In this document: one piece after another, positions 9,099 through 51,010 of the stretch
Numbering within the stretch: position 1 is the first letter of the stretch
Layout: each line of letters starts with the position of its first letter
NCBI GenBank assembly: GCA_020443075.1
Contig: JAGRIU010000021.1
Coordinates: forward strand, 1-59,617
Direction: 5' to 3'
Source of the DNA: Alphaproteobacteria bacterium
GTDB taxonomy: Bacteria > Pseudomonadota > Alphaproteobacteria > Micavibrionales > Micavibrionaceae
DNA length: 59,617 nucleotides
Program-made: the position numbers and the translations under genes
The notes under the pieces: generated by a model
Seen by the model: the letters and a program-made list of their open reading frames with translations, nothing else
What the model was told of the DNA's origin: nothing
The model's database searches: none

Positions 9099-9284
9099 CT
9101 GTCTGAATCTTTCGCTTTTGCCGCGCTTTCATTTGTTTTTCGCGCGCTTTACTTAACGAACCTAATCTTATGGTATTGAAGCCTGCGAAAAACGCAAGAC
9201 CTATCCTTATATTTTACTCAAAAAATCGTTTTAAAACAAATAAGAAGATCGCGCATTTTACAGCGCAAGATGAAGCCAAAAGCC

Positions 9285-10388
<1,104 letters not shown>

Positions 10389-31009: not shown

Positions 31010-32779
31010 TCAGTTTGCCTGACGACGCAGGAAGGCCGGGATATCGAGCTGGTCGTCGTCGCCGGAGGGTTTTCTCGACGGTGCATCGATGTTTAAGCTG
31101 CCTTGGGAAGGGGATTGCGGCGTGGGTGCCGTAGGCGTCCCCATTCCGGCAGACGGTGCAATACGCTGCCTTTGCTCGGCATGTTGTTCACCACGATGCA
31201 GGCTCTCACCTATGCCTTCCAGACGCTCCTGCACACTGCCCGTGATCCGCTCAAACAAGGATGGCGAGCGTTTTTGCTCTTGCGGGTTAGGCATTTTCGG
31301 TGGATTGAGCACCAGCTTTTTCGGTGCGATCGGCGCTTCCATCATCTCAGAGTGGGGCGAGGCCGCAGGGGCGCTGTAAGAACGGCTCTGAGCCGCCTCA
31401 GGAACGTGCTCGCCATAAAAGCTTGAAATGTACGAGCCTGCACCCGATGGGGCTTCGACCGGCTTGGGCGGAATGAATGCGTCGTTATAGCGCGTGCCGC
31501 GCAAAATTGTGTCACGCGGAACGGTCGATTCTTCATTTTCGGCAAATTCAGCCTGTTCGAACATATCAACAGACATTTCCGGTAACGGCTTGCTTTTTTG
31601 CTGTTCAGCCAGTTTTTCGACCGGTGTTTTCACTGGCGCTGTTACTGGCGCGGGCGCTTTGATGGATTGCACGGTTCTGGCCGAGACAAAAGCGGGCGGA
31701 CGGTTGTTAGACGGAAAGGCCGGAGCGCTTTCGTTGCTGCTGACCGTATTGGGTACGGCGCGTTCAAGGATATTTCCCCCGGTATTGTCACCACGCTTTT
31801 GCGCCTCAATTTCTTTGTCGATTCCGGTGGCCACGATCGAAACACGCATTTTGCCTTCGAGCGATTCGTCAAAGGTCGCCCCGAAAATAATATTGGCATC
31901 AGGATCGACTTCATCACGGATACGGTTACAGGCCTCGTCGGCTTCGAACAAGGTCATGTCATAACCGCCTGTGACGTTAATGATCACGCCGCGCGCACCT
32001 TTCATGGACACATCATCGAGCAGCGGGTTGTTGATCGCGGCTTCAGCGGCTTCGATCGCGCGCTTATCGCCTTCGGCTTCGCCTGTTCCCATCATGGCCT
32101 TGCCCATTTCCAGCATCGCGGTGCGGATATCGGCAAAGTCCAGGTTCACAAGCCCCGGGCGCACCATCAGGTCGGTCACGCCGCGCACACCGGCTTGCAG
32201 TACGCCATCGGCCATCTGGAACGCTTCGGCAAAGGTTGTTTTTTCGTTGGCCACACGGAAGAGATTCTGATTCGGAATTACGATCAGTGTATCGACATAG
32301 TCCTGAATTTCATCGATGCCTTTTTCGGCCGATTTCATGCGGTGAGAGCCTTCGAAGTGGAAGGGCTTGGTTACCACACCTACGGTCAGAATGCCGCGCT
32401 CGCGGCAGGCCTTTGCAATAACGGGGGCCGCGCCTGTCCCTGTTCCGCCGCCCATACCGGCGGTGATAAAGGCCATATTCGCGCCATCGAGATGACTCAT
32501 CACTTCTTCGAGAGATTCTTCTGCCGCCGCGCGTCCGACTTCGGGTTTGGATCCTGCCCCCAAACCGCCGGTCACTGTCGCGCCGAGCTGGATTTTATTA
32601 CCGGCCAGGGAATTGCCCAGCGCCTGTGCATCGGCATTGCAAACCAGAAATTCGCATCCTTCAAGATTAGAGGAAATCATGTTGTTGACGGCGTTTCCTC
32701 CGGCCCCTCCGACACCGATGACGGCGATTTTGGGCGCGAGTTTCTGCGATTCAGTCGGTTGCATAGCGATATTGATCAT
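31010..32779 (-). CDS. ftsZ: Cell division tubulin FtsZ
   Basis: A GTPase of 589 residues that forms the division ring. Residues about 1-330 are the tubulin-like core with [14 protein letters not shown], the GTP signature [13 protein letters not shown] and [18 protein letters not shown] long, Pro/Ala-rich disordered linker (about 335-575) ends in the conserved DIPAFLRRQ peptide that binds FtsA and other partners. The long linker is typical of Alphaproteobacteria. GGGGA precedes the ATG. The 319 bp between ftsA and ftsZ holds GANTC and DnaA sites, so ftsZ probably has its own cell-cycle promoter. Confidence 0.97.
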
Positions 32780-32841
32780 GGCGTTTTATCCCCGAAAAGA
32801 CGTTGGTTTTGCAAAATATTCTTCCCACAGGCCTGTAGAAA

Positions 32842-33072
32842 GAATCATGCGGCAGGTTTGTTCAAGAGTGTAGGTAAGTTTAAAAAAGCAGAAAAGTGAA
32901 AAATGAAAAGGATTCACAGGCTTACCGCTTCTCCTGGACATTTCCAGATTAACATTTCCTGAGATGCAAACACAAAAAAAACACTTAAGTGACTCATCCG
33001 ATTCAGATTTTTTCGATACACACCTAAACCCCCAAGGCTATACAAGGCTTATACACAAATTGCTGTGGATAA
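32842..33072 (-). promoter_or_regulatory. ftsZ upstream region with GANTC sites and a DnaA box
   Basis: Four GANTC sites, the CcrM methylase target of Alphaproteobacteria (GAATC 32842, GATTC 32911, GACTC 32991, GATTC 33000), and one exact DnaA box (TGTGGATAA, 33064-33072). The stretch 32780-33098 contains no gene. In Caulobacter ftsZ is controlled by CcrM methylation and DnaA; similar control here is inferred from the sites. No full CtrA box (TTAA-N7-TTAA) was seen. Confidence 0.6.
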
Positions 33073-33098
33073 GTCTCCGAAGGAAAGTAAAGGGATTT

Positions 33099-34367
33099 TC
33101 ACCAGTTTTCCTTCAGCCAGAACTTGACGCGTTCCCACAAGCCGTGGGCTTCCGCATGCGCCATGATCTCGGCGGGCATTTCGTGGCTGTGTTCGGAGAT
33201 ATAAGCAAACAGGCCGGCCGTAGTGGAAAAAGCCGGGCCGCTGACAGCATCGGGCAGGCCGGACAGGCGGATCGGACGGCCCAGCCGCACTTGTTTATCC
33301 AGCACATGCTGGGCGAGGTCCTTTATGCCGGTGAGCTGGCTGGCGCCGCCGGTCAGGACTACGCGGCGGCCCACAGCCGTTCCCAGACCGCTATCGGCGA
33401 GCTTGCCGCGCACGAGTTCGAAGATTTCTTCTACGCGCGGCTGGATGATGCCGACAAGCAAGGTTCGCGGCACGTGATTGGGGACGCGGTGATCTTCTTC
33501 GCCAAGGCGCGGCACGTCGATAAGTTCGCTTTCATCGGCGCTGGTGGCCATGGCGTTGCCATAGAGCGCTTTAAGGCGTTCGGCATCGTGCAAAGAAGTG
33601 GTTAGCCCCTTGGCGATATCGTTTGTGACATGCTGGCCGCCAATGGGCAGCGCATCGGCGTAGATCATACGTCCGCTATGGAAGACGGCAATAGAGGTCG
33701 TGCCTGCGCCCATATCGATCAAGGTGCAACCCAGATCCATTTCATCTTCGACAAGAGAGGCCAGCCCGGCGGCATAGGCCGAATGGCACAAAGCCGTAAT
33801 GTCGAGATGCGAGCGCTCGATTGAGGTCGCCATATTGCGCAGCGCGCCCATATCGCCGGTCAGCATATGGATATCGACGCTGAGATTCTGGCCGAACATG
33901 CCGCGCGGTTCGGTGATGCCGTCATTGCCGTCGATGCGGTAATTCATCGGAATAGTATGGACGAGTTCGTATTCGTCGCTAATCACCTGCTCTTGGGCTT
34001 TAGCCAGCGCACGGCGGATATCGTTACTGGTGATTTCATGGCCATCGACGCGCACATCGGCTGTGTGAACGTGTGAGGCAGCATGCACGCCGGGCAGGTT
34101 CACCACCACTTCGCGCAAAGGATAACCCTTCATGATATCGGCGGCCATATTTTCCGCTGCGTGTACGGTCTGGCGGATGGCGGCTTCGGCCAGATCAAGA
34201 TCGGTAATCGTGCCGCCTTTAACGCCTTTTGAAGCATGATGGCCGACGCCCAAAATCTCAAAGCCGCCTTCATCGTCGATGACGCGGCCGATAAAGCAGG
34301 CGATTTTCGACGAGCCTATATCCAGAACCGCCAGAAGCGTGCCTTTAGGTTTATGCTTTTGGGTCAT
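33099..34367 (-). CDS. ftsA: Cell division protein FtsA
   Basis: Actin-like membrane tether of FtsZ, 422 residues. The nucleotide-binding motifs are LLAVLDIGSSKIACFIGRV (N-terminus), LGCTLIDMGAGTTSIAVFHSG (middle) and VVLTGGASQLTGIKDLAQHV. The SHI/1C region with VVNLPGVHAASHVHTADV is present, and a C-terminal amphipathic end ERVKFWLKENW fits membrane binding. Its ATG directly abuts the ftsQ stop, so the genes are coupled. Confidence 0.96.
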   Translation of the reverse strand: MTQKHKPKGTLLAVLDIGSSKIACFIGRVIDDEGGFEILGVGHHASKGVKGGTITDLDLAEAAIRQTVHAAENMAADIMKGYPLREVVVNLPGVHAASHVHTADVRVDGHEITSNDIRRALAKAQEQVISDEYELVHTIPMNYRIDGNDGITEPRGMFGQNLSVDIHMLTGDMGALRNMATSIERSHLDITALCHSAYAAGLASLVEDEMDLGCTLIDMGAGTTSIAVFHSGRMIYADALPIGGQHVTNDIAKGLTTSLHDAERLKALYGNAMATSADESELIDVPRLGEEDHRVPNHVPRTLLVGIIQPRVEEIFELVRGKLADSGLGTAVGRRVVLTGGASQLTGIKDLAQHVLDKQVRLGRPIRLSGLPDAVSGPAFSTTAGLFAYISEHSHEMPAEIMAHAEAHGLWERVKFWLKENW

Positions 34368-35255
34368 CTAGATACTGTTTCCTGCTTTAACGCTGGTTTT
34401 GAGACTGTCCTGATAGTCCTGAAGCTGGCCGGGGCGGGTCTGGATTGCCAGACGCTCGGGATCGCGCAGGTCTATGGAGATAATATCCTTATCCAGCAGG
34501 CCGTTTTCCTCTTGTGCTCTGGCAAGACGGCGTAGCGCCAGCGGCATATCGTCTTCGGGCAACTTTATCTTGAGACCGTTTTTCAAGGTAATGTCCCAGC
34601 GGCGTCCCGATATGTGCGTTGCCAGACGTATGCGCTTATAGACCGGCTCTTCAATTTTTACAGTGTTCAAAAAATCCTGAAATGCCTGCGGTGCGTCCGT
34701 ACCAGCGAGAAGAAGTATGGATTTGAAGGCTTTAATATCGGCGCCTTTGATAGGCTGTCCGCTTTCATCCAGCACAACGATGTCTTTTCCATCTTGCCAG
34801 AGGGCTTCGGGGCGGCGCTCTTGCAGACGCACGTAAATCGTGTCCGGCAGGCGGCGCTCGACATGGGCATCCTTAACCCAGTTAATGTCTTGCAGGGCTT
34901 GTTGCGCGGCTTGCGGATCGAAGGCAAAGAGCGGATCGTTCTTTTGCATGCCGATAGCGGCCATTAAGGCTTTAGAATCCGTGCGGTTCCGTCCTTCGAC
35001 GAGGATATTTTCCACGCGAAAGCCCATATCGGCGCTGGCCAGAATAATTTTATCCTTGCCCCATTCGCTCGTTTTTCCGGCGCTACCGCTGAGGATAAAC
35101 CATGCGCCGAGCCATAGAGCCAGAACCAGAGCACCGAGAATCAGGCCAAAGCGGCGCAGCCACGGCAAGGTGACCGCCAAAACGCCTTTGCGGCGCTTAT
35201 TCAGCGACGAGCGGCGCGTGCCTTTGCTTTTGGCCATTCGGATATTCACCGCCAT
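34368..35255 (-). CDS. ftsQ: Cell division protein FtsQ
   Basis: A 295-residue bitopic divisome protein. A basic cytoplasmic tail (KGTRRSSLNKRRKG) is followed by one membrane helix (about 33-54) and a periplasmic POTRA domain (FRVENILVEGRNRTDSKAL through NWVKDAHVERRLPDTIYVRL). The beta domain follows. GGAGAGGGTAGGG ahead of the ATG is a strong ribosome binding site within the end of ddl. FtsQ links early and late divisome parts with FtsL and FtsB. Confidence 0.94.
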   Translation of the reverse strand: MAVNIRMAKSKGTRRSSLNKRRKGVLAVTLPWLRRFGLILGALVLALWLGAWFILSGSAGKTSEWGKDKIILASADMGFRVENILVEGRNRTDSKALMAAIGMQKNDPLFAFDPQAAQQALQDINWVKDAHVERRLPDTIYVRLQERRPEALWQDGKDIVVLDESGQPIKGADIKAFKSILLLAGTDAPQAFQDFLNTVKIEEPVYKRIRLATHISGRRWDITLKNGLKIKLPEDDMPLALRRLARAQEENGLLDKDIISIDLRDPERLAIQTRPGQLQDYQDSLKTSVKAGNSI

Positions 35256-35259
35256 TGCC

Positions 35260-36486
35260 CTACCCTCTCCGCTTCAAAAGCCGCGCATCTTTCGGCACGG
35301 GGTCTTTGGGGAGCGCACGGGCGCGGTTTTCAGTGAAGGCCTCTTCGATCAGAGCCGTAAGAAGATCGGTAAAGAGCGCAGGGTGGTCTTTTGCGGCTTC
35401 CCAGAGGAAATAGCCGATCGAACCGGGCCACGGATTGACCTCGTTGAGCCAGAGTTCTCCGGTTTTAGAGTTGCCGATAAAATCAATGCGCGGGGCGCCC
35501 GTGCCATCGACGGCAGCAAACATCTCCATAGCCCATTTACGGATTTTGTCTTGCATGTCTGCGGGGATGTCAGGATTGAGCTCGCGGGTCAGGGACAGCA
35601 TGCCTTCACTCACGGGCCCTTCCGTTTTGGAGCCGAGTTTATTGCCGGATTTATCATTGCCACCCGAACAATATTTTTGTTTGAAATCCAGTAGTTCATC
35701 CGTGGTTTTCGGGCGCTCGATGGCCGAAGTTCTAACTTCACCAAAAGCTTTTGAGACCGCTACGTTATATTCGACCAGATTCTCAACAAAGGGTTCGATG
35801 ATGGCCGCGTCATCATATTCGAAAATCACAGGCAGCGCCGCGCGCAAAGTTTCAAGATCACCCGCTTTGGCCACGCCGATAGAACTGCCCAGATGCGAGG
35901 GTTTAACAATGCACGGGAAGCTTACCGGACCCATCATCGCTTTGAGGTCTTCGGCGGCGATCATATAGCCCTGAGCGGGACGCTTGATGATGGCATAGGG
36001 CAGCATCGGAATGCCCGCGCTGTGCAGGATTTTTTTTGTCGCGCCTTTGTCCATCAGGACCGAAGAGGCTAGCGTGCGCATGCCCGCATAGGGCACGCCG
36101 GCAAATTCGAAGAGGCCCTGTATATTGCCGTCCTCGCCGTACAGACCGTGGAACGAGGGAATCGCGGCGTCGAATTCTATATTTTCAACCTTTTTAAACA
36201 GACCGGCTTTTTTCAGCGGGACCAAGCGGGCGCGGCGACCCGGCGTGACATCAAGCGTTACACTTTGAGTTTGCGCCAGCCCTTCGGCAGATAAGAGATA
36301 ATTCTCGCGCTTGCGCAGAATATCGCCGGTCAGCCATCCCCCTTCCGGCGTGATATAGACCGGAAAGGCTTCGTAGCGGCTCTGGTCGATGGCATGGAGG
36401 ATTTGCAAACCCGTGACGACGCTCACATCGTGCTCTGGACTACGTCCACCGAAGAAAACTGCGATTTTTTTTCTAGAAGCGTTCAT
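35260..36486 (-). CDS. ddl: D-alanine--D-alanine ligase
   Basis: An ATP-grasp ligase making the D-Ala-D-Ala dipeptide that MurF uses. Of its 408 residues, the N-terminus shows AVFFGGRSPEHDVSVVTG, then FHGLYGEDGNIQGLFEF, PCIVKPSHLGSSIGVAKAGD and the metal/ATP motif LWLNEVNPWPGS. It is longer than the common 305-375 residues, with a Gly/Lys/Ser-rich insert (SGGNDKSGNKLGSKTEG, about 275-291) and a basic C-terminal tail. It starts the ddl-ftsQ-ftsA run. The next genes upstream are on the opposite strand, so it is cut off from murB. Confidence 0.94.
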   Translation of the reverse strand: MNASRKKIAVFFGGRSPEHDVSVVTGLQILHAIDQSRYEAFPVYITPEGGWLTGDILRKRENYLLSAEGLAQTQSVTLDVTPGRRARLVPLKKAGLFKKVENIEFDAAIPSFHGLYGEDGNIQGLFEFAGVPYAGMRTLASSVLMDKGATKKILHSAGIPMLPYAIIKRPAQGYMIAAEDLKAMMGPVSFPCIVKPSHLGSSIGVAKAGDLETLRAALPVIFEYDDAAIIEPFVENLVEYNVAVSKAFGEVRTSAIERPKTTDELLDFKQKYCSGGNDKSGNKLGSKTEGPVSEGMLSLTRELNPDIPADMQDKIRKWAMEMFAAVDGTGAPRIDFIGNSKTGELWLNEVNPWPGSIGYFLWEAAKDHPALFTDLLTALIEEAFTENRARALPKDPVPKDARLLKRRG

Positions 36487-36549: not shown

Positions 36550-36579
36550 ATGACATCAAACAAGCGTTTATCTGAATGA
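36550..36579 (+). CDS. Nine-codon leader ORF overlapping the hydrolase start
   Basis: ATG at 36550 preceded by AAAGGA at about 7 nt encodes MTSNKRLSE and stops at TGA 36577-36579. The stop overlaps the ATG (36576) of the next gene as ATGA. The hydrolase itself has no visible ribosome binding site, so ribosomes may reach it by re-initiation after this mini-ORF. Seen directly; the function is inference. Confidence 0.35.
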   Translation: MTSNKRLSE

Positions 36580-37367
36580 TACGTTATTTTAACCACGAAA
36601 CTCCGGCGATGTCACATACTCTTTATTGTAAAAAATCAGGCGAAGGTCCGCGGGCGATCTTCTGGGGGCATGGCTGGGGGCAGGATCACCGTGCTTTCGA
36701 GCCTCTAGCCGAGAGCTTGTCGCGGCTGGGGCGGCATGTGGTTCTCGACTTTCCGGGTTTCGGCACATCGCCGGAGCCGCAAGCGATTTGGGGCACGGAG
36801 GATTACGCCGATGCGATGGCCGATTTTATCCGTGCGCAGACCGGCGAGGGCGAAAAAATTATCTGGTGCGGTCATTCCTTTGGCGGGCGTGTGGGCGTAC
36901 AGCTTGCGGCGCGGCATCCCGATCTGGTGGCCGGGTTGTTTTTGGTGGCGGCCGCCGGTTTACCGCGCAAACGCCCCTTATGGCAAAAGCTGTATTTTAA
37001 AGGACGGGTGGCGCTCTTTAAGACTCTTAAAAAGCTTATTCCACTTGGCCTATCGGAAGAGTGGCTGAAAACGAAATTCGGCAGCGCGGATTATAAAAAT
37101 GTTTCGGGGACGATGCGCGGGATCTTCGTGCGCACGGTGAATGAGGATTTGAGCACGGTCGCCCAGAGCGTAAGCTGCCCTGTTCTTTTGATGTACGGGA
37201 CGCAAGACAGCGAAACCCCTCCGGAAATCGGACGGCGTTATGCGCAATTGATACCACGTGCGGAAATGATTGAGCTTGAGGGGCTGGATCATTACACTGT
37301 GCTGGGCGCGGGGCGGCATCAACTGGCTTCGGCGCTGCAACGTTTTATCAAAAATCTGGATGAATGA
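36576..37367 (+). CDS. Alpha/beta hydrolase coupled to the MurF-like gene
   Basis: A 263-residue hydrolase. IFWGHGWGQDHRAFEPLAES supplies the oxyanion region, VVLDFPGFGTSP follows, GHSFGGR holds the nucleophile Ser (near 100), YGTQDSETPP the acid and LEGLDHYTVLGAGRHQL the His. No signal peptide; cytosolic. The substrate is unknown. The stop overlaps the start of the MurF-like gene (ATGA), which implies that the two products are needed together. It is divergent from ddl and lies inside the dcw cluster on the opposite strand. The start could also be the ATG at 36609. Confidence 0.88.
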   Translation: MIRYFNHETPAMSHTLYCKKSGEGPRAIFWGHGWGQDHRAFEPLAESLSRLGRHVVLDFPGFGTSPEPQAIWGTEDYADAMADFIRAQTGEGEKIIWCGHSFGGRVGVQLAARHPDLVAGLFLVAAAGLPRKRPLWQKLYFKGRVALFKTLKKLIPLGLSEEWLKTKFGSADYKNVSGTMRGIFVRTVNEDLSTVAQSVSCPVLLMYGTQDSETPPEIGRRYAQLIPRAEMIELEGLDHYTVLGAGRHQLASALQRFIKNLDE

Positions 37368-39013
37368 TGATCGAAACCGCCGGACTGTTTTTGTTGTTTC
37401 TAGGATTTGCCGCTTTTGCGACCAAGCGCAGCCTGACCTACATGCATATTTACCAGCAGGAAGAATATGATAGCGCTCGTTTCTTGCGCTGGATATTCAA
37501 AGAGGGCGGCTTTGACAAACGCCTGAGTTTTATGCTGGCTTTGTGCGCGGGTGCGGCGCTGTTTATTCCAGAGATCGCCGCGCAGTTCGTGTTTTTTACG
37601 GCTTTTGTGATGAGCGCCTATTTCGAGAAAGACCCCCGGCGCGAAGCTAAAAAGAAGCTGGTTTTAACGCGGCGGGCGCAGCGCATTTTCTTTCCGGCGC
37701 TGGCTTTGAGCATATTTTCAACGCTTTGGTGCTTTTTCCTGCCGTCTTTTTACGGGCTATGGATCGTCAATGTGCAACTGGTGCCGTTTTTTATTGTTTT
37801 GGTGAATGCAGCCTTACAACCCTATGAAAATAAAGTGCAAAAAGTGTTCTGGCAGGAGGCGCATGATAAAGTTCTGGATTATAACCCGCATATCATCGCC
37901 ATAACCGGATCATTCGGCAAAACGTCGGTGAAGCATATTTTGGGACATATCCTGAAGATGCACGCGCCGAGCCTGATTACGCCGGGCAGCGTCAATACGC
38001 CGATGGGCATTACGCGCATTATCCGCGAAGAGCTGGAGCCGCGGCATCAATATTTCATCGTCGAAATGGGGGCTTACGGGCCGGGCTCTATTGCACGGCT
38101 TTGTGCGCTAACGCCGCCCGATACAGGGGTGATTACGGCGATCGGGCATGCGCATTATGAACGCTTTAAATCTCTGGAGACGGTGGCCGAAGCCAAGTAC
38201 GAACTGGCCGAAGCGGTTTTGAGAAAGCAAGACGGGCTGATGATCGTCAACGAGAATACGCTGCGCTTTGATAAAGCCAAGGCGTTGCAACAGGCCCATG
38301 CCAAGCAGTTTGTTGTTTGCGGGGACGCGCCGGAGTCCAAGGCGAAGGATAAAAAAGAGAAGAAGGAAGACATACCGGGGCATTTGGAGGTGCATAAAAT
38401 CGTACAGGAGCTTGAAGGCTTGCTGGTACGGTTAAGCTGGAAAGGCGCGAGCTATGATCTGAAAGCGCCGCTTTACGGGACACATCACGGGCATAATCTG
38501 GCACTGGCGTTTGTCACAGCCTTCGAACTCGGGCTGGGGCCGGAGGATATTTTGAGCGCGCTCAAAACCCTGCCGCAGATTGCACACCGTTTGGAGGTGA
38601 AGCCGCAAGGGCGCGATATGATCGTCATTGACGATGCCTATAATTCCAACCCGATCGGTTTTCAATCGGCGCTGGGGCTTTTGGCGACGCTGGCGCAAAA
38701 AAGCGGCGGCAAGATCAAGCGCAAGATCCTGATCACACCAGGGATGGTCGAGCTTGGCCCCGCGCATACCGAGGCGCACGAGACAATCGGGCGGCTGGCC
38801 GGACAGGTGTGCGATGTGGCGCTGGTAGTGAACGGGCAGCGTATCCCGAGCTTTCTTGAAGGCTTTAAAGCTACGGGCGGACAAAAAGAGCTGCACGAGG
38901 TCGCCAGCTTCGCCGAGGCGCAAAGCTGGGTTGCGGCGAACAGACAAGACGGCGATGCGGTCTTGATCGAAAACGACTTGCCGGATTTGTACGAACGGAA
39001 ATTACGCCTGTAA
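37364..39013 (+). CDS. MurF-like Mur ligase with N-terminal membrane domain
   Basis: A 549-residue protein. Residues 1-165 hold about five membrane helices (3-20, 55-72, 73-87, 107-126, 129-150) with no Mur-ligase counterpart. From 175 on it is a Mur ligase: ATP loop ITGSFGKTSVK (180-190), FIVEMGAYGPGSIARL (231-246), AIGHAHYERF (259-268), HRLEVKPQGRDMIVIDDAYN (408-427) and ITPGMVELGPAHTEAHE. DDAYNSNP and MVELG are MurF hallmarks, so it may add D-Ala-D-Ala to UDP-MurNAc-tripeptide at the membrane. The canonical MurF uracil-recognition domain is missing. It could be the only MurF here, or act on another substrate. It overlaps the hydrolase gene by 4 nt. Confidence 0.85.
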   Translation: MMIETAGLFLLFLGFAAFATKRSLTYMHIYQQEEYDSARFLRWIFKEGGFDKRLSFMLALCAGAALFIPEIAAQFVFFTAFVMSAYFEKDPRREAKKKLVLTRRAQRIFFPALALSIFSTLWCFFLPSFYGLWIVNVQLVPFFIVLVNAALQPYENKVQKVFWQEAHDKVLDYNPHIIAITGSFGKTSVKHILGHILKMHAPSLITPGSVNTPMGITRIIREELEPRHQYFIVEMGAYGPGSIARLCALTPPDTGVITAIGHAHYERFKSLETVAEAKYELAEAVLRKQDGLMIVNENTLRFDKAKALQQAHAKQFVVCGDAPESKAKDKKEKKEDIPGHLEVHKIVQELEGLLVRLSWKGASYDLKAPLYGTHHGHNLALAFVTAFELGLGPEDILSALKTLPQIAHRLEVKPQGRDMIVIDDAYNSNPIGFQSALGLLATLAQKSGGKIKRKILITPGMVELGPAHTEAHETIGRLAGQVCDVALVVNGQRIPSFLEGFKATGGQKELHEVASFAEAQSWVAANRQDGDAVLIENDLPDLYERKLRL

Positions 39014-39074
39014 TTTGACATAGTTTTAGCTCTGCTTTATATTCCTCCTTCTGTCAATTGATTGGAAACAGGTT

Positions 39075-39869
39075 ATGACTCGTTTGCAGACCTTTCTTTG
39101 CGCTTCGGCGGCCCTCATTAGCGCGCAGGCTACTGCCTCTCTTGATGATGCGGGGTATGATGTCGATGTTTTTGAACAGCATATCAAGCCGCAACTCGTC
39201 CATACTGTCGACGGGATCAAGACTTTAGAAGATCTGCGCGCTCTAAAAGAGGCAGATCGTCGCAGAGCCGATAAAATCTCCAGTGAACTGGGGTGTCATT
39301 CTATCGTATCCGGTGAAGGCCGGACATGGGATAAATCTCTCATTCTCAAGGCTTTTAGCCGCCTTGACGAATATAAAACTATCCTTCGCGGCACGGGGTA
39401 TAAAGGCCCTCTTGACCTTCTTGCCAGAACGGCAGGTTCTCTTGAATTTTCCGATATCAGGCAAGAGCTTCCCCAGACGGTCTGTAGTCAAGCCTATCTC
39501 AGCGGACCTCTTGCGCGTTTTCGCGAGGTTTCTCTGGCTGGTGTTCCCGATGGCCCTGTTCGCAAACAGGTTGAAAAACTGCAGCGCTTTATCAAAGGCG
39601 CCGAACAGGACGGAACAATCTCTATCTATGAGGGTTTTGCCGCATTGAGAGACAAAACCGCGATTGCCGGAGTATTTCATACAGCATACGAGATTCCCGA
39701 GGCTCTTTCGCGTAAAGTGTTGGAAAACCTTGATTTGGACACGTCTTCTAAATCCGTAGCGTTTATGGGCTATCTTCTTTCCAAGAAATTGGAAAGACAA
39801 ATGGGAAGCAACAATGCTTTCGAGCGCGATAGAGCGCAGCTTCCAATTCTCGGGCTGGTGCGGGAATAA
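39075..39869 (+). CDS. Unknown secreted protein, paralogue 1
   Basis: A 264-residue protein with a clear signal peptide (MTRLQTFLCASAALISAQATA, cleavage near residue 21), so probably periplasmic. The mature part is helical and charged, with two Cys (in ELGCHSI and TVCSQAY) that could pair. Its C-terminal half (ALSRKVLENLDLDTSSKSVA) resembles the same region of the next gene (ALAAAILEDLNIDSDDALIK), suggesting tandem duplication followed by divergence. AACAGG precedes the ATG. No family was recognised. Confidence 0.75.
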   Translation: MTRLQTFLCASAALISAQATASLDDAGYDVDVFEQHIKPQLVHTVDGIKTLEDLRALKEADRRRADKISSELGCHSIVSGEGRTWDKSLILKAFSRLDEYKTILRGTGYKGPLDLLARTAGSLEFSDIRQELPQTVCSQAYLSGPLARFREVSLAGVPDGPVRKQVEKLQRFIKGAEQDGTISIYEGFAALRDKTAIAGVFHTAYEIPEALSRKVLENLDLDTSSKSVAFMGYLLSKKLERQMGSNNAFERDRAQLPILGLVRE

Positions 39870-39934
39870 GTTTAATACAGGTGGGTCCTGTAGGTTTGGT
39901 TTAGAACAGTTTTACACATTGAGGGTTTTTATTC

Positions 39935-40786
39935 ATGGCTTTAAGACAAATGGCAACCGCTTTGGCGTTGGTCTTCAGTTCCTATTCTTTTTCTTCAGGC
40001 CGTGACGCTGAGGGATTGTCCTCACTGTCGCTCGATCGACTGCAAGAACTGGCCGGACAGGCCAAAAAAGACGTTGCGGCTATGGACCTTGATGATCTGC
40101 GGAGCAGATATTACCAGCTTCAATGCGAGCCTACTCAATATTATTCAAGATCTTCTGATGATGGCGCAATATCCTCTGATGACGACGTGAGGCGTTTTTT
40201 TGCAGATCAAGCCGTCAGCGAGAGATTTAGTGCGTTATTAAAGACTATTCCCCAAGAACGCATTGATCGTTATCGCGCTATCGCTGATGAAGCCACTGGC
40301 GGCTTTGGTCATGAGGAACTGGCTCTTAAAGCTGCCGTGCTCGCCACACTTTACGAAAACGTATATCCCGTACCAACATGCGCTATGGGGGCCGATTTAC
40401 AGGATATTATCAAGACCAAGCTTAGAAATAATTATTTGAGGCGCACCATCGTGGGGGCTGAGAATGCACCTACGGATGACCAGAATCTTATCGTGGAAAG
40501 AATCAAAGAACTTGCCAACCATACCGAACAAACCCTGGCAGACGGAATGGTGTCCGCACAGGATGCTGTTGAACTGGATACCCGCGTAGCGCGGGTGTTT
40601 GAAAAAACTCAAACAATGGCTTTATTGGTCGGTGCGCGTGCTCTGGCCGCCGCTATATTGGAGGATTTAAACATCGATTCCGACGATGCTCTTATCAAAG
40701 GTCTGGCATCCGCGATGAGTGTAGGCATTATGGCTAAAAACGGACAACATCTGCCGTTAACCTGCCCGATTCCCGAGTCCATATAA
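39935..40786 (+). CDS. Unknown secreted protein, paralogue 2
   Basis: A 283-residue protein with a probable signal peptide (MALRQMATALALVFSSYSF, cleavage near residue 21). The mature protein is helical with Cys in LQCEP, PTCAMG and LTCPIP. The arrangement of two central Cys, a DGMVSAQDAVELDTRVARVF helix and ALAAAILEDLNIDSDD parallels the preceding gene. GAGGG precedes the ATG and the gap between the two genes is 65 bp, so they are probably co-transcribed. Function unknown. Being exported and embedded in a cell-wall cluster, an envelope role is possible but unproven. Confidence 0.75.
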   Translation: MALRQMATALALVFSSYSFSSGRDAEGLSSLSLDRLQELAGQAKKDVAAMDLDDLRSRYYQLQCEPTQYYSRSSDDGAISSDDDVRRFFADQAVSERFSALLKTIPQERIDRYRAIADEATGGFGHEELALKAAVLATLYENVYPVPTCAMGADLQDIIKTKLRNNYLRRTIVGAENAPTDDQNLIVERIKELANHTEQTLADGMVSAQDAVELDTRVARVFEKTQTMALLVGARALAAAILEDLNIDSDDALIKGLASAMSVGIMAKNGQHLPLTCPIPESI

Positions 40787-40907
40787 GCCCCGCTTTCCCC
40801 CTGCACCAAAACTATTACATAAAATGCTATGTAAATTTAACGGTCTGTCAATACAGGCTGTATTAACATTGTAATGTTTGGGTCTTTATCTTTAGGGGGT
40901 AATATCA

Positions 40908-41105
40908 ATGATAACCAATAATGACATGAGAAATGCGCATGCACTTTTAGATGCCATGGGAGAGACGGGCAACGCCTGTATTTCCAGTGGAGAAGAACTC
41001 GCCGACATCATGGGCCTTGCGGCGGCCATGGACGCGTCGATCCAAGGACGTAGACCTGTCGTACGCCATGTACCTGCGGCGGTTTTGGATTCCTTGCCAG
41101 CCTAG
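40908..41105 (+). CDS. Small hypothetical protein
   Basis: A 65-residue acidic protein (MITNNDMRNAHALLDAMGET at the start) with a strong AGGGGG ribosome binding site. It contains helices rich in Ala and Met (LADIMGLAAAMDASIQ) and a C-terminal RRPVVRHVPAAVLDSLPA segment. No signal peptide or membrane helix. The preceding 120 bp is AT-rich with possible promoter elements (TTAACA near 40863). The family is not recognised. Confidence 0.55.
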   Translation: MITNNDMRNAHALLDAMGETGNACISSGEELADIMGLAAAMDASIQGRRPVVRHVPAAVLDSLPA

Positions 41106-41182
41106 ATCATACGTTTTTCTTTAGTTCTGTAATTTACAAGCCAGAGTTGTGTTTCTGGGCTTCTTTTCGGGGGTGTAAAACT

Positions 41183-41836
41183 ATGTTTTGTGCGGCTTTG
41201 CCTGAGGATGACTGTCGTTTAATCCTGCGCTACAGCGCGGAATATCCGGCGATGTGGGATCATATTAACGGGTTTTTGTGGCTTTCGCCGGAAATCCGCC
41301 CGCGGCAGTCGTTGCGGTTTTTGAAAAATCTCTTACGTCAGGAATGGCTGGCTTACGGGCTCAGCGAGGACGAGATCGACGATCTTTTTGCCTTTAAACG
41401 CAAGATGATCAATTTCGATCGTGAATACAGACCGGAGTCTCTGGACGCTTTAGCGACACGCCTGCGGATCTGGGCTTATGACGTGCCAAATGCTCTTTTT
41501 GGGCAAAACCGGGCGGGGGAGCCTATTCCGCAAGATGATCACACGGCTTTACAGAAACTGGCCGGACGGATTGTTTTCGCCGATCCGCGCTTTGGGCAGA
41601 ACCTGCGTGCACTCAACAGCCTTATTCGCGACGATACGCTCGAAGATCGCTGGGTGAAGGATATTGAACGCCTTATGTTGCTGGAGCATTTCACTGACAA
41701 TCCTCAGCCGCGCAGCGGCCATTTCGAGCATTTATTTGAGGATTTCAGACCGGAATGGCGGACGATGGATGGGATGATGCTGTCTTATCACTTCCGCTAT
41801 AAACATCCAGAGCATAAAAAAGCGGCACGCGCCTAG
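41183..41836 (+). CDS. Hypothetical cytosolic protein
   Basis: A 217-residue soluble protein rich in Arg, Leu and aromatic residues (RPRQSLRFLKNLLRQEWLAY, LRIWAYDVPNALFGQNRAGE, LMLLEHFTDNPQPRSGHFEH). I chose the ATG at 41183 because CGGGGGTG lies 8 nt upstream; a frame 12 codons longer starts at a non-ATG codon. It is the last gene of the plus-strand island and converges with murB across 19 bp. No domain was recognised. Confidence 0.75.
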   Translation: MFCAALPEDDCRLILRYSAEYPAMWDHINGFLWLSPEIRPRQSLRFLKNLLRQEWLAYGLSEDEIDDLFAFKRKMINFDREYRPESLDALATRLRIWAYDVPNALFGQNRAGEPIPQDDHTALQKLAGRIVFADPRFGQNLRALNSLIRDDTLEDRWVKDIERLMLLEHFTDNPQPRSGHFEHLFEDFRPEWRTMDGMMLSYHFRYKHPEHKKAARA

Positions 41837-41855: not shown

Positions 41856-42770
41856 TTAGCTCTCCTGCCCTATTCTCTTGATTTCCCAGTGCAGCTTGAC
41901 CCCTAGATCGTACAGGGCACGGCGGCGGAGTTCATTTCCCAAATTTTCGAGGTCCGCGGCGCTAGCATCCCCGGTATTGATCATAAAGTTGCAATGCAGC
42001 TCGTTCATTTGCGCGCCGCCCATACGCAGGCCGCGTCCGCCGACCATATCGACAATTTGCCAGGCGCGCGTGCCGGGGGGCAGGCCCGCTTTTTTGAGTT
42101 CGGTTTCGGACGGATTGGCGAAGGTTGAACCGCCCGTACATTCGCGGATAGGCTGGGTTTCATTGCGCTTGGCCTTAATTTCGGTGATGCGGGCCTTGAC
42201 GGTCTCATAGTCCTCTGCCCGGCCCTTGAGGATGGCAGAGGTGAAGATCAAATCATGATGCACACCGCAATGGCGGTAGGTAAAATGCATATCCTCTGCT
42301 GTGAGGCGGTGGGGATTGCCTTTACGGTCGATAGCGGTCGCGCCGACGAAGATGTCCTTGATTTCCGCACCGTAAGCCCCGGCATTCATGCGCAGCGCCC
42401 CGCCGAGACTACCTGGAATGCCGGAGAGAAATTCCATCCCGCCTATTCCGGCTTTCACGGCGGCGGCGGCAACATTGCCATTGAGCGCCCCACATCCGGC
42501 GGAAATATAGGTATCGTTTAGAACTTTTACGGATGAGAAGGCTTTATCGAGTTGAATCGTTGCGCCGCGCAACCCGCCATCGCGTATAATCGTGTTGGCG
42601 AGGCCACCGATGATGGTGAGGGGCTGATCTGCGGACCATTGGCTCAAGAACGCTGCTAGGTCGTCTTCATCGGCGGGCTTGAAGAGCAGGTCAGCAGCTC
42701 CGCCGCAGCGAAACCAACTCTGCGCGCCGATGGGAGCATTTTCGGTGAGTGTGCCGCGGATGTTTTTCAC
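41856..42770 (-). CDS. murB: UDP-N-acetylenolpyruvoylglucosamine reductase
   Basis: A flavoenzyme of 304 residues that reduces UDP-GlcNAc-enolpyruvate to UDP-MurNAc. N-terminal FAD domain motifs: [15 protein letters not shown] and [17 protein letters not shown]; then [20 protein letters not shown] and NAGAYGAEI, followed by the [11 protein letters not shown] loop and [19 protein letters not shown]. The 4-nt overlap with murC shows coupling. In most Alphaproteobacteria ddl follows directly; here the plus-strand island intervenes. Confidence 0.96.
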
Positions 42771-44206
42771 GCCGCGCTGCCTTTGGCTTTTTCGATGGCC
42801 TCGTCCAGTTGGGCGGGCAGAGCGTAGGCCCAGCTTGTGATATCACCCGCGCCCATGCAAATCACGAAATCGCCGGGGCGGGTGATTTGCGCAACCGTAT
42901 GCGCCAGCTCCTTACGGTCCGGTAGCGCCTGTACATCTCGGTGGCCGTGGTTTTTTATGCCTTCGACGAGGCTGCGTTTATCCGCGCCTTCGATCGGGGT
43001 TTCTCCGGCTTCGTAAACATCGGCGATGATCACCGCATCGGCATCGTTGAAGCATTTGCAAAAGTCCTCGAACAAGTCATGCAAGCGGGTATAGCGGTGA
43101 GGCTGCATGACGGCAATGACGCGGCCGCCATTTCCGCTCACGGCGGTGCGGGCGGTTTTGAGGACGGTTTCGATTTCGATCGGGTGGTGGGCGTAATCGT
43201 CAATCACGGTGATGCCGTGGCTTTCGCCCGTCTTTGTGAAGCGGCGTTTAACGCCGGAAAAGCCGGAAAGCGCCTTTTTCATGGTCGCGGCGGGGACCTC
43301 CATTTGCTTGGCGATCGCCAGCGCGACGAGAGAATTTTGTACGTTGTGGCAGCCAAGCATCGGCAGGTGGATATCCTTTAAGGTCTGGCCGTCGGCAAAA
43401 TGCACGTCAAAGACGCTGCCCTCCGCATCCATATGCAAGTTCAGAGCCTGCACATCGGCCTGCGGGTTAAAGCCGTAGGTGATGATTTTGCGGTCTTTGA
43501 CGTCGGGAACAAGGGCCTGAACTTCGGGATGGTCGATACACAGCACGGCATAGCCGTAGAACGGCAAGTTATGAATGAACTGGCGGTAGGCGGCTTTCAC
43601 ATTTTCGAAGCTGCCGTAATGTTCCATATGTTCGGGGTCCATGTTGGTGACAACCGCGACGCTGGCGGGTAAGCGCGTGAAGGTGCCGTCGCTTTCATCG
43701 GCTTCGACGACCATGATGTTGCTCTGCCCCAGCCTTGTATTTGTCCCGTAGGCATTGACGATGCCGCCATTGATAACTGTCGGGTCAAAACCCGCAGCCT
43801 CCAGCATTTGCCCGACCATGGAGGTCGTGGTGGTTTTGCCGTGTGTGCCGCCAATCGCCACCGCCCATTTCATGCGCATCAGCTCGGCCAACATTTCGGC
43901 GCGGCGCACGACCGGCAGGCCGAGATCACGGGCGGCGGAGAGTTCGGGGTTGGTGGATTTGATCGCGGAGGAGACTACAACGGCGGAAATGGCTTGGCCG
44001 TTTTTGCTTTTCAGGTTCGATGGCTCATGGCCGATATAGATTTCTATGCCCTGATCGCGCAGGCGTTTGACATTGGCGTTTTCGGCCATATCGGAGCCTT
44101 GCACTTCATAGCCCAGCGTGCGCAAAGCCTCGGCGATGCCGCTCATGCCGATGCCGCCGATGCCGATAAAGTGAAGCGGGCCGATGTCTTTGGGCATTCC
44201 TTGCAT
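42767..44206 (-). CDS. murC: UDP-N-acetylmuramate--L-alanine ligase
   Basis: MurC adds L-Ala to UDP-MurNAc. N-terminal motif [23 protein letters not shown] loop [26 protein letters not shown] and the middle/C-terminal [20 protein letters not shown] with [15 protein letters not shown] chose the ATG at 44206, preceded by AAGGACT, over one nine codons upstream that would overlap murG by 13 nt. The product is 479 residues. Confidence 0.96.
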
Positions 44207-44220
44207 GTGCTTTAGTCCTT

Positions 44221-45336
44221 CTATTCGTTCCACCCGCTAATGACCGCAGTGATCAGGTTGCCGAGTTTACGGGCCGCATCGGGGCGGCCGCATTCGCGGG
44301 CTTTTTCAGCGGCGCGGAAAAGAGTTTCCGGATTTTGCAGGAAAGTCTCGATCCTTGCAAGAACCGCTTCGGGGGTGAAGCCGTTTTCGGTCATCACCCA
44401 GGCCCCGCCCGCATCGGCAATCACGTCGGCGTTTTGCTTTTGCTGCTGGTCCTTGTGATGCGGATAGGGCACGAAGACAGCCGGACGTCCGGCGGCGGTG
44501 ACTTCGGCCACAGTGGATGCGCCCGAGCGCGCGATCACGACATGCGCGGCTTCGAGTTGTTCCGGCACATCGTCGATAAAGGGTTTGAGTTCGGCCTTGA
44601 TACCTGCCTCGCCATAGGTTTTACGCGCTTCATCCAGATATTCGGCGCGGCATTGCTGGACGATATGCAAGCGCGCGCGATGGTCAGAGGGCAACCGCGC
44701 CAGCGCTTCGGGCAGAATATCGCTGAACACCTTGGCCCCCAGTGAGCCGCCCATCACGAGAATACGCAACGGGCCACTTGCTTCCAGCGCCGGATAGGGC
44801 TTCGTATAGAGCGCGGTGATTTCGCTGCGCACCGGATTGCCGGTAAAAACGCAGTTGACGGCCTCGGCCTTTTCCAGCCCTTTAAGCTGAGGCACAGAAG
44901 AGGCGATCCGCAGCGCCTTTGGCGCGAGCATGTGATTGGCCTTGCCGATGATGGCGTTTTGTTCGTGCAGGATGGTCGGCACGCCAAGGCTTTGCGCGGC
45001 ATAGACCGCCGGAAAAGACGGATAGCCGCCAAAGCCAACGACCAGGTCGGGCTGGCGGCGTTTGATCAGAGTTTGCGCCTTGAGGATACCCAGCGCCAGC
45101 GCGGCCACGCCTTTGAGTTTGCCCATAAGCCCTGCGCCCAGCGTGCCGGAGGGCAGCACATGCATCGTAACATCACCGAAGCCGTCCTTGAAACGTTCGC
45201 CGCGTTTATCGGTCACCCATTCGACTTCATAGCCGCGCGAGAGCAAATCCTTGGCCAAAGCCTGCGCAGGCATGACGTGACCGCCTGTGCCGCCCGCGCT
45301 TAGGATAACTCGTTTTTTGCGTTCTTCTTTGCTCAT
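44221..45336 (-). CDS. murG: Lipid II synthase MurG
   Basis: Membrane-associated glycosyltransferase of 371 residues that adds GlcNAc to lipid I. N-terminal [19 protein letters not shown], then [19 protein letters not shown] and [14 protein letters not shown]; the C-terminal domain has [18 protein letters not shown] and [20 protein letters not shown], with the UDP-GlcNAc site. It overlaps ftsW by 4 nt and precedes murC in the same direction. Confidence 0.97.
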
Positions 45337-47997: not shown

Positions 47998-49083
47998 TTA
48001 GCGCAGTTTCAATGTCGCCATGCCGATCATGGCCAGAATGACGGCGATAATCCAGAAACGGATGACGATGGTCGGTTCGGACCAGCCTTTTTTCTCGAAA
48101 TGGTGATGCAGGGGCGCCATCGCGAACACCCTTTTTCCGGTCAGTTTGAAAGAGGCTACCTGCACGATCACCGACACGGTTTCGAGTACGAACAAGCCGC
48201 CGATCAGCGCCAGCACCAGTTCGTGCTTGACCATCACGGCAATCGCGCCCAGAACGCCGCCCATCGCGAGCGAGCCCGTATCGCCCATAAAGATCATGGC
48301 CGGAGGCGCGTTATACCAGAGAAATCCCATTGCCCCGCCGATCAATGCGCCGCAAAGGATCGCCAGCTCCCCCGTGCCGACGACATAGGGGATGCGCAAA
48401 TAATCGGCAAAAATCTCGTTTCCGACCAGATAGCTGATAAGGCCGAAACAGGCCGCGACGATCGCCACGGGCACAATGGCCAGCCCGTCCAGACCATCGG
48501 TCAGATTGACCGCGTTGGAGGCCCCGATCATCACGAGCAGCGCCCAGGGAATAAAGAACAGGCCGATAAAAATGAAAGTGTCTTTGAGAACCGGTATAGC
48601 AATATGCTGGTTAATATGGCCGGGCAGATTATACATGATCCCGAAGGCCGCTATGCCGCCGATAATGAGCTGAGCGAGAATTTTAAGCTTTCCGGACAGG
48701 CCTTTGGAGTTGCGCTTGGTGAGCTTGAGATAATCGTCGGCAAAGCCGATCATGCCGTAGCCAACCATCACGAGCAGCGCCAACCAGATAAAAGGATTGC
48801 TCAGATCCGCCCAGAGCAGCGTTGAAACCGTGACCGAGAGTAAAATCATCACCCCGCCCATAGTCGGGGTTCCGGCTTTGCTGGCGTGGGCTTCTTCGAG
48901 ATATTCACGGATGTTATCGGAGCCTGCTTGCTTGCTCTTGAGCCAGAGAATGAGCTTCGGGGCCATCAGGAAACACAGCAGCAACGCCGTCATCACCGCC
49001 AGACCCGTTCGGAAGGTCAGATAATTAAACAGGTTGAAAAATATGTGGTATTCGGCCAGCGGTGTAAGAAGGTGATACAGCAT
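47998..49083 (-). CDS. mraY: Phospho-N-acetylmuramoyl-pentapeptide transferase
   Basis: MraY makes lipid I at the inner membrane. The 361-residue protein has about ten membrane helices and the family motifs [30 protein letters not shown] (the Asp pair), [39 protein letters not shown] and [20 protein letters not shown]. The start lies 3 bp after the unknown 156-residue gene. Canonical clusters place murF at that upstream position. Confidence 0.97.
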
Positions 49084-49086
49084 TGT

Positions 49087-49557
49087 CTAACAGCTCTTTC
49101 TTTTCGATAGCATATCCGGCACGGCCCGCAGGACTCCGGCAAATTTTACGCGTCCTTTTTCAAGCCCGTGGCGGAAAATTACAAAATCACCGGGCCGCAA
49201 AACATCGGGCACAATGGCGGCGATTTTGGCATTTCCTGTCAGGGCTTGCAATGTTTCATGTACATCCGAGACCACGCCGAAGCTCCGGCCTGTATAGGTG
49301 CAATTCAAATGCGCGATCTGGTTAGGCAAAGACGGGGTTTGAACGCGGCGTCCGGCGGCGGCCTGAAGATAATCCAGATCGATTTCCCACGCATCGGGCA
49401 GCGCATTTTTCAAAATCGCTGTCGGGCGGCCAAAGCCTGTGTCGATCATCGATTCCACACGTAAAATCGTATAAGGGGTGCGCGTTTTGGGCTGAACGCT
49501 GACGGTGATGTGTCCAACCCTTCTTGTGTTCCAGTTTGTACGGATATTGGTAATCAT
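49087..49557 (-). CDS. Unknown protein in the canonical murF position
   Basis: A 156-residue soluble protein with an AGAGGATC ribosome binding site, lying between murE (31 bp upstream) and mraY (3 bp downstream), where murF normally sits. No ATP loop or Mur-ligase core is present. Residues about 103-145 (VHETLQALTGNA, then IVPDVLRPGDFVIFRHGLEK) faintly follow the N-terminal substrate-domain pattern of MurE/MurF (DSRxxxPGDLFxALxGxxxDGxxF). It could be a remnant of murF, a detached MurF N-domain or an unrelated replacement. The first 100 residues match nothing I know. Confidence 0.7.
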   Translation of the reverse strand: MITNIRTNWNTRRVGHITVSVQPKTRTPYTILRVESMIDTGFGRPTAILKNALPDAWEIDLDYLQAAAGRRVQTPSLPNQIAHLNCTYTGRSFGVVSDVHETLQALTGNAKIAAIVPDVLRPGDFVIFRHGLEKGRVKFAGVLRAVPDMLSKRKSC

Positions 49558-49588: not shown

Positions 49589-51010
49589 TCAGACAGTTGT
49601 TAATGACAGTTTGTTTATGGCGGCGCGGGCTTCTTCCGCATCGTCAAAATCTTCGGTGTGATCGGCAAAAATCTGGCCGCGCTCGTGACCCTTACCGGCG
49701 ATGATCAGCACGTCGCCACGGCCCAGCATACGGACAGCTTTTTCGATGGCATTGCGACGGCCGGGAATTTCTTCGGCCTTTGGCGCGGCGCTCAGGATTT
49801 CTGCGCGGATCGTGGCCGGGTCTTCGCTGCGCGGGTTATCATCGGTGATGATGACGATATCGGCGAGGCGCGCGGCAATTTCGCCCATTTGCGGGCGCTT
49901 GCCTTTGTCGCGGTCGCCTCCGCAGCCGAAAACGCAAATCAGGCGCTTTTCGGTGTGCGGGCGCAACGCTGTGAGCACGGTTTCCAGTGCGTCGGGCGTG
50001 TGGGCGTAATCAATATAGATGCCAACATCTTGCGAATGGCTTTCGATGCGTTGCAGGCGGCCGGGCGGGCTTTGCAACGCGGGCAGTCTTTCCAGAACAA
50101 GTTCTAGCCAATCCGGGTCGTCGGGGTGTTCGGCCATCACCAGCCCCAACGCACACAAAACGTTCATGGCCTGAAAACGCCCGACCAGCGGCAGGGTTAT
50201 CTGCGCCGAAAGACCTTTGCCTCTAATTTCGATTTCCTGCCCTTGCGGCAGAGGCCGCGCGCTCATCAACCCTATGCCTGTGCCCTGCCGTCCATAGTCA
50301 ATCACGCGGATGCCGCGTTTATCACAGATGGTTTTCAGGGTTTTAAATTCCGGCACATCGGCATTCAACACGGCTGTGCCGCCCTCTTCCAGAACATCGG
50401 AAAACAGACGCACTTTGGCGGCGAGGTAGTCTTCCATGTTTTCGTGATAATCCAGATGATCGCGAGAGAGATTGGTAAAACCTGCCGCTTTGATCCGCAC
50501 ACCGTCAAGACGGTATTGATCGAGGCCATGGCTGGAGGCTTCCATCGCCAGATGGGTCATGCCGTCCTTTTCGAGGCGCGTCAATTCCTCGTGCAGTTCA
50601 ACGGTTTCGAGCGTGGTCATTTTTCCGGAGAGTGTGCCGAGGCTTGCGGATTTTAAGCCCAATGCGCTCCAGATTTGCGCCGCGAAATGCACGACGGAGG
50701 TTTTGCCGTTGGTTCCGGTTACGGCCGCGATATATTCGGGCTGGTTTTTGTAAAAAGCAGCAGCAAGGTGGGCAAAGATTTTGCGCGGGTTTTCGTCCGT
50801 GATGAGCTGCACATTCTCCGGCATGTCAACGGACGTGCCTTTCGGGGCCAAGATGACAGACGCGCCGTTTTGGATGGCGGCGGCAATGTACTCGCGGCCA
50901 TCGGTTTTGACACCGGGAAAGGCGGCAAAGAGAAAACCGGGACGGACCTTGCGGCTGTCCTGCGTTAGCCCTTTGAGAGCGGTGATGTCGATTTTTTCCA
51001 GCGCGCCCAT
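49589..51010 (-). CDS. murE: UDP-MurNAc-tripeptide synthetase, meso-DAP type
   Basis: MurE adds the third residue of the stem peptide. Of 473 residues, the N-domain shows TQDSRKVRPGFLFAAFPGVK; the ATP loop is VTGTNGKTSVVHF; MEASSHGLDQYRLDGV and DYAHTPDALETVL follow. The motif TDDNPRSEDP (DNPR) indicates meso-diaminopimelate as substrate. The ATG at 51010 shares a base with the ftsI stop (TGATG); a TTG one codon earlier was rejected. It ends 31 bp before the unknown gene that occupies the murF slot. Confidence 0.96.
   Translation of the reverse strand: MGALEKIDITALKGLTQDSRKVRPGFLFAAFPGVKTDGREYIAAAIQNGASVILAPKGTSVDMPENVQLITDENPRKIFAHLAAAFYKNQPEYIAAVTGTNGKTSVVHFAAQIWSALGLKSASLGTLSGKMTTLETVELHEELTRLEKDGMTHLAMEASSHGLDQYRLDGVRIKAAGFTNLSRDHLDYHENMEDYLAAKVRLFSDVLEEGGTAVLNADVPEFKTLKTICDKRGIRVIDYGRQGTGIGLMSARPLPQGQEIEIRGKGLSAQITLPLVGRFQAMNVLCALGLVMAEHPDDPDWLELVLERLPALQSPPGRLQRIESHSQDVGIYIDYAHTPDALETVLTALRPHTEKRLICVFGCGGDRDKGKRPQMGEIAARLADIVIITDDNPRSEDPATIRAEILSAAPKAEEIPGRRNAIEKAVRMLGRGDVLIIAGKGHERGQIFADHTEDFDDAEEARAAINKLSLTTV

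Follow-up and report, generated by a model that had tools for sequence, protein, structure and literature searches.

A three-gene module with a membrane Mur ligase that may stand in for Ddl and MurF in Alphaproteobacteria

Introduction

Cell-wall precursor synthesis in the cytoplasm depends on MurF and Ddl, two essential enzymes that are as a rule regarded as invariable components of the pathway. This report concerns a module of three genes, coding for a Ddl, an alpha/beta hydrolase and a membrane Mur ligase (mMurF), in a stretch of 59,617 nucleotides from an alphaproteobacterium of the Micavibrionaceae (GenBank assembly GCA_020443075.1, contig JAGRIU010000021.1), referred to below as the window. 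In this bacterium and in many other Alphaproteobacteria the usual Ddl and MurF genes appear, from their sequences, to be mostly missing or broken, and the module has likely taken over the addition of D-Ala-D-Ala. Among the open-licence papers listed by literature searches, none dealt with a membrane, missing or replaced MurF.

The nearest described enzyme is standard MurF (model TIGR01143), which shares with mMurF the middle and C-terminal domains, the adenosine triphosphate (ATP) loop and the DDxYN motif. mMurF differs from it in several ways: membrane helices take the place of the uridine diphosphate (UDP)-binding domain, the KGS end is lacking, the score falls below the cut-off of the model, and the gene sits with ddl and a hydrolase. 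MurT, of the MurT/GatD pair, is described as a ligase without the UDP-binding domain that acts on lipid I and II, not on UDP precursors; authors argue that such a domain would clash with the membrane. MurT and mMurF are alike in having no UDP-binding N-terminal domain. However, the MurT reaction is the amidation of D-Glu, with GatD supplying the ammonia, whereas mMurF has membrane helices and the MurF motif DDxYN. No GatD glutaminase gene was seen among the genes read at 31010-54177; the module neighbours of mMurF are the hydrolase and ddl.

In van gene sets a hydrolase and a MurF-type ligase accompany a Ddl-type ligase. The module resembles them in this combination of genes, but its Ddl meets no van ligase cut-off and it seems to replace the standard enzymes. 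UshA of Bacillus subtilis is a putative alpha/beta hydrolase that acts on undecaprenyl-linked envelope intermediates, with undecaprenyl-monophosphate sugars as reported substrates (PMC11898649); it is likened to the module hydrolase by that description only, as a lead. MurE-MurF fusion enzymes (PDB 8f5d, compared by title only) form one chain, as do the MurE-MurF fusions of five genomes discussed below (G166, G050, G251, G153 and G021), in which the MurF half has lost catalytic motifs.

The membrane ligase and the missing MurF

On the minus strand, the dcw cluster of the window extends between mraW (54177) and ftsZ (31010). As the first-pass annotation had observed, and as the open reading frame (ORF) coordinates confirm, murG-murC-murB (41856-45336) and ddl-ftsQ-ftsA-ftsZ (31010-36486) are split by plus-strand genes. 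The ORFs that fill the murB-ddl gap code for the hydrolase, the ligase, two exported-looking proteins, a small protein and a 229-amino acid (aa) protein (Table 1). That annotation took these plus-strand genes as the unit. It overlooked that no murF lies between murE and mraY, that a 156-aa ORF (orf156) stands there instead, and that ddl belongs with the ligase and the hydrolase. The unit is ddl, the hydrolase and mMurF, and its divergent layout, which recurs in several other genomes, accounts for the opposite strand of the island.

Table 1. Coordinates of the module, of the murF site and of the other island ORFs in the window
Feature	Position	Strand	Basis or remark
ddl, module-type D-Ala-D-Ala ligase, 408 aa	35260-36486	minus	Ddl domains; TIGR01205, 232.6 bits
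Alpha/beta hydrolase, predicted active	36576-37367	plus	Pfam PF00561
mMurF, membrane Mur ligase, 549 aa	37364-39013	plus	PF08245 and PF02875, no PF01225; best MurF match of the genome; fold matches MurF structures
mMurF residues 1-173, predicted membrane helices replacing the UDP-binding domain	37364-37882	plus	Four hydrophobic peaks; helices in the AlphaFold2 model
mMurF ATP-binding loop TGSFGKTS	37904-37927	plus	7 of 8 positions invariant in 41 rows
mMurF motif DDAYNSNP	38630-38653	plus	D424 and N427-P430 invariant in 41 rows
mMurF end ENDLPDLYE	38969-38995	plus	Alignments; standard MurF has KGS there
Exported-looking ORFs (two)	39075-39869, 39935-40786	plus	No match in 36 relatives; judged not part of the module
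Small ORF, ~66 aa	near 40908-41105	plus	Read by eye
229-aa ORF	41147-41836	plus	No Pfam match; judged not part of the module
mraY	47998-49083	minus	PF00953 and PF10555; downstream neighbour of the murF place
orf156, conserved 156-aa putative C-terminal domain left of MurF	49087-49557	minus	Between murE and mraY, the ancestral murF place
murE	49589-51013	minus	Mur ligase match L001 and gene order; upstream neighbour of the murF place

The start of mMurF overlaps the end of the hydrolase gene by four bases (ATGA). Its middle and C-terminal domains score 104.1 bits (PF08245) and 39.8 bits (PF02875). The N-terminal UDP-binding domain PF01225 was not found in it by Pfam at E up to 1, nor in the mMurF of Kordiimonas aquimaris; the same library detects the domain at 38.9 bits in the standard MurF of the relative G136, although the model is an imperfect detector that also misses the degenerate MurF of genome G219. 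The best NCBIfam model is that of MurF, TIGR01143, at 195.9 bits against a curated cut-off of 288.6. A MurT model, which is not the best family match, stays at 16.2 bits, its cut-off being 800. By sequence and by fold alike, the best PDB matches are MurF structures (4qf5, 3zl8, 1gg4, 4cvk). Besides the two motifs of Table 1, lysine K278 is invariant in the 41 aligned rows. The ligase core thus looks intact, and mMurF is predicted to ligate D-Ala-D-Ala in place of standard MurF.

The genome of the window (71 contigs, 1.97 Mb) is listed as 100% complete, and the sequences nearest to the window carry the labels Micavibrio sp. and Alphaproteobacteria bacterium. A normal murF elsewhere in it, which the first-pass annotation held would speak against its own proposal, was looked for with the MurF model and with the Mur ligase middle-domain model, and none was found. 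The other matches of the MurF model are MurE, MurC, MurD and an Mpl-like ligase, all below cut-off. The middle-domain model gives six matches: MurE, MurC, mMurF, MurD, the Mpl-like ligase and a FolC-like protein, the last two named from a reading of their sequences. A second, normal murF is rejected, since mMurF and other proteins account for all six.

Near-exclusion of MurF and mMurF across genomes

In a class survey of 289 alphaproteobacterial genomes, mMurF was found in 20, the window's own included, from 13 family groups; all score at least 283 bits and the next score is 167. MurF above cut-off is present in 243 of the 289, but in only two of the mMurF genomes (G115, G198) as against 241 of the 269 others. 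Fisher's test, which ignores the shared ancestry of the genomes, gives p 2.4e-14 for this exclusion. In 12 of the 13 mMurF-bearing family groups there are mMurF genomes without MurF above cut-off.

The site between murE and mraY takes several forms among the 20; in these loci, as in the named and order-level ones below, each gene is named after the window protein that it matches best. No gene stands there in eight (G058, G275, G137, G235, G069, G038, G222, G117), and orf156 in two (G000, G237). Four (G050, G251, G153, G021) have MurE joined in one protein with a MurF that lacks the ATP loop, and two (G166, G219) have a full-length MurF with broken motifs. MurF above cut-off is in place in G115 and elsewhere in the genome in G198; these readings cover 18 of the 20, all but G013 and G031. 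In the four fused proteins (loci L065, L074, L077, L078) the ATP loop is erased and the N-terminal stretch is still recognisable, and the fused truncated MurF reads as a conserved dead half-enzyme. In G198 (L099) the MurF above cut-off lies outside the dcw cluster, the module is also present, and the murE-mraY gap measures 658 bases.

A named set of 12 mMurF genomes was assembled by a short-word search of genome contigs with the window protein, which gave 12 loci. MurF above cut-off is present in two (L022, and L023 from Rhodothalassium); in L018 MurF is just below cut-off with some motifs altered. The other nine have no MurF: four Micavibrio types carry orf156, and in five murE runs straight into mraY. 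For example, cultured Kordiimonas aquimaris has the module, no MurF above cut-off, and a murE that directly abuts mraY. The samples overlap, L015 being the G237 contig and the genomes of L013, L014 and L016 appearing to be G671, G677 and G668. L013 and L016 bear the name Micavibrio, yet the taxonomy places them under Bdellovibrionota, while the records grouping with them have the label Alphaproteobacteria. Assembly gaps were considered as a general cause of the missing murF and rejected, as eight class and five named genomes have murE next to mraY with no break in the sequence. In a survey of 398 Pseudomonadota genomes, the share from outside the class not being stated, mMurF was found in four (E up to 1e-60), all Alphaproteobacteria.

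Decay of the standard murF

An order-level set of 37 genomes, which counts that of the window, has mMurF in 18. The murE-mraY site is readable in 12 of these; the others are G667 and G686 (contig ends), G688, G689 and G693 (module apart from the cluster) and G671. The relative G136, which belongs to the window's family and comes from the class survey, has an intact MurF and no mMurF. G672, G680 and G681 retain a MurF of 414-430 aa in which the ATP loop and the YNN, HIEHF and DESYN regions are erased. At the murF place orf156 is found in the window, G237, G669, G670, G677 and G668, a form of 152-154 aa in G675 and G676, and nothing in G695. Arranged in this way, the sequences read as a decay series, from an intact gene through a full-length gene with erased motifs and a single C-terminal domain to nothing. 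In G695 (L134), where no trace of MurF is left, mraY and murD are separated by about 1.3 kb (8964-10282) with no match to the cluster genes of the window.

A hidden Markov model (HMM) built from the orf156 group gives 102-108 bits on the three degenerate MurFs of this series; the MurF of G136 scores 39 bits, and the best of 4000 shuffles reaches 7.1. An earlier orf156 HMM, run against 2000 shuffles and all ORFs from the loci then in the sample, gave 29.6 bits on the G136 MurF and 8.7 on the row that followed. In the alignment of MurF remnants, rows L045, L048 and L052 contribute nothing. By these profile scores orf156 appears homologous to the C-terminal domain of MurF; a profile comparison with mMurF gives 1.4%. 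Selection on orf156, as read from its codon positions, is about as strong as on ftsQ and less strong than on mraY, and 11 further homologues are present in the protein database. It is therefore a retained domain, not debris.

The Ddl and hydrolase partners

The Ddl of the window belongs by fold and domains to the family of TIGR01205 but is of a distinct type. Its score falls below the cut-off of that model (245.65 bits) and below every D-Ala-D-Ala cut-off shown, and it shares 23.6% identity with the standard Ddl of 325 aa found at the same place in G136. A Ddl match above the TIGR01205 cut-off was found in 3 of 24 genomes: in G136, in G031 (module-adjacent) and as a second Ddl of G237. Other Ddl-like ORFs are carried by G050 and G069. 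Among loci showing both murB and ftsQ, the interval between them has no ddl in any of the 10 class loci outside the window's family or of the 5 named loci. In 13 of the 20 class genomes ddl adjoins the hydrolase or mMurF, and 7 of these share the divergent layout of the window; in G237 and G166 the contig stops at that point. It belongs to the same unit as the hydrolase and mMurF.

The hydrolase retains Ser, Asp and His in all 18 aligned module hydrolases. Its hydrophobicity scan shows no hydrophobic segment, and neither a signal peptide nor a membrane helix was seen. It lies at most 0.8 kb upstream of mMurF in 18 of the 20 class genomes, two being cut by a contig end within the hydrolase, and it adjoins mMurF in all 11 of the named loci L013, L014 and L016-L024. 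This pairing exceeds chance. Since the hydrolase is near mMurF more often than ddl is, it probably works on the substrate or product of the ligase. As a weak guess, it may clear a wrong or stalled mMurF substrate.

Protein distances within the module (mMurF, hydrolase, Ddl) are correlated at 0.62-0.71. Against mraY, murC and murE the correlations are 0.12-0.23 for mMurF and 0.25-0.47 for Ddl; these values come, with no significance test, from 15 genomes for the module genes and murE, 12 for mraY and 9 for murC. We read the three genes as diverging together, as a unit that would have moved against the background of the cluster, most clearly in the case of mMurF. A tree places the alphaproteobacterial mMurFs together in a single group, with support 82. 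The exception is G031, whose mMurF clusters with rows labelled Treponema primitia, Synergistaceae, Fretibacterium, Clostridiales and Deltaproteobacteria; the tree comes from a quick search that left 19 of 43 inner branches open, with the G137 ORF reduced to its last 560 residues. The relatives labelled Treponema, Synergistaceae and Clostridiales bear the database names MurF or Mur ligase family protein.

Other ORFs of the island

The exported-looking ORFs are rejected as parts of the module, as neither has a match in 36 relatives, among which six share the genus of the window. Their stretch has a G+C of 0.47-0.49, lower than that of the ligase (0.50-0.57). The first-pass annotation had described them as secreted paralogues, but no BLASTP match between them was found at E up to 10, and no Pfam match for either at E up to 1. 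The ligase-murB gap is at most 206 bases in four relatives (L013-L016), which also counts against the exported pair and leaves no room for the 229-aa ORF; for this ORF and the small one, relatives were judged by that gap only, with no dedicated search. The first-pass proposal fails for the exported pair.

Models for the pathway

Three things argue strongly for takeover of D-Ala-D-Ala addition by the module, which we regard as likely: the near-exclusion of the two ligases, the stepwise decay of the old murF and a ligase core that is intact. The Ddl of the module would make D-Ala-D-Ala, and mMurF would attach it to the stem peptide. As to substrate, the membrane helices stand where MurF has its UDP-binding domain, and our best guess, with MurT as the analogy, is that mMurF works after MraY on a lipid-linked precursor, which may be the MurNAc-tripeptide of lipid I or II (MurNAc, N-acetylmuramic acid). 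The combined proposal, in which the module took over both the making and the attaching of D-Ala-D-Ala from standard Ddl and MurF, with the ligase perhaps acting on a lipid-linked precursor, has about an even chance of being right. A fuller version is more tentative and falls somewhat short of even: the order of the precursor steps would have changed, with MraY moving MurNAc-tripeptide to the carrier and mMurF adding D-Ala-D-Ala on lipid I or II, UDP-MurNAc-pentapeptide would not be an intermediate, and the old MurF would survive in some genomes as a dead domain with a new role.

Several observations weigh against this proposal. The argument for the lipid step is drawn from domain loss and analogy. 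MurF above cut-off is also absent from 28 of the 269 genomes that have no mMurF, so a missing MurF by itself proves little, and MurF above cut-off and mMurF coexist in 4 of 32 genomes (G115, G198, G298 and G299, one genome having been reached twice). No ddl was seen beside mMurF within the stretch read in 5 of the 20 class genomes, the G069 contig being only 3.9 kb long, and G219 has neither partner near mMurF. The hydrolase distances also follow those of the cluster (0.51 with mraY, 0.49 with murC; range 0.35-0.51 with mraY, murC and murE). Furthermore, the AlphaFold2 model of orf156 is mostly strands (mean predicted confidence, pLDDT, 72.8), its best Foldseek match (E 0.36) does not pair it with domain 3 of MurF, and the profile comparison between orf156 and MurF is weak (10%, E 0.003).

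The main rival is a tethered but otherwise ordinary MurF. mMurF would have replaced MurF and still use UDP-MurNAc-tripeptide, the UDP end being held by the membrane domain or by a partner, and the pentapeptide would be handed to MraY; we hold this to be quite possible, at around one third of the weight of belief. The nearest folds of mMurF, being MurF structures, fit it, and the degenerate MurFs fused to MurE keep an N-terminal stretch resembling the UDP-binding domain that, in these four genomes, could act in trans. However, PF01225 was not found in mMurF itself, and 8 of the 20 mMurF genomes retain nothing of MurF between murE and mraY, so a leftover domain is not generally needed.

Improbable, by comparison with replacement of the standard enzymes, is a module that makes another stem terminus (for example, D-Ala-D-lactate (D-Ala-D-Lac) or D-Ala-D-Ser) in the manner of van-type clusters, with the hydrolase removing the ordinary product. 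Such a role would suit the joint occurrence of a Ddl, a MurF-type ligase and a hydrolase, and a Ddl that misses all the D-Ala-D-Ala cut-offs shown and ends in PGS in 16 of 16 module proteins. Yet every D-Lac or D-Ser ligase model listed scores far below its cut-off on the window Ddl, the best being VanG with 161.3 bits against 495. In addition, the Lys-Tyr pair of the loop, which presumably favours D-Ala, is kept in 16 of 16, and the module has no dehydrogenase.

Very unlikely indeed is the first-pass view of the island as an additional modification branch, located at the membrane, alongside a normal pathway: a membrane protein of a cell-wall family next to a hydrolase, and the few genomes with both ligases, would agree with it, but the window's genome has no standard MurF, the two ligases nearly exclude each other across the class, and the exported genes were not found in the relatives. 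What stands of that view is a membrane-localised precursor step for the ligase and the hydrolase, together with the ddl that it had omitted; the evidence favours replacement over an added branch.

Significance

On replacement of the standard enzymes, the module stands in for Ddl and MurF while the stages of MurF decay are still visible, and this part of the pathway would therefore be exchangeable. If mMurF does use a lipid-linked precursor, the textbook order of steps would not be universal.

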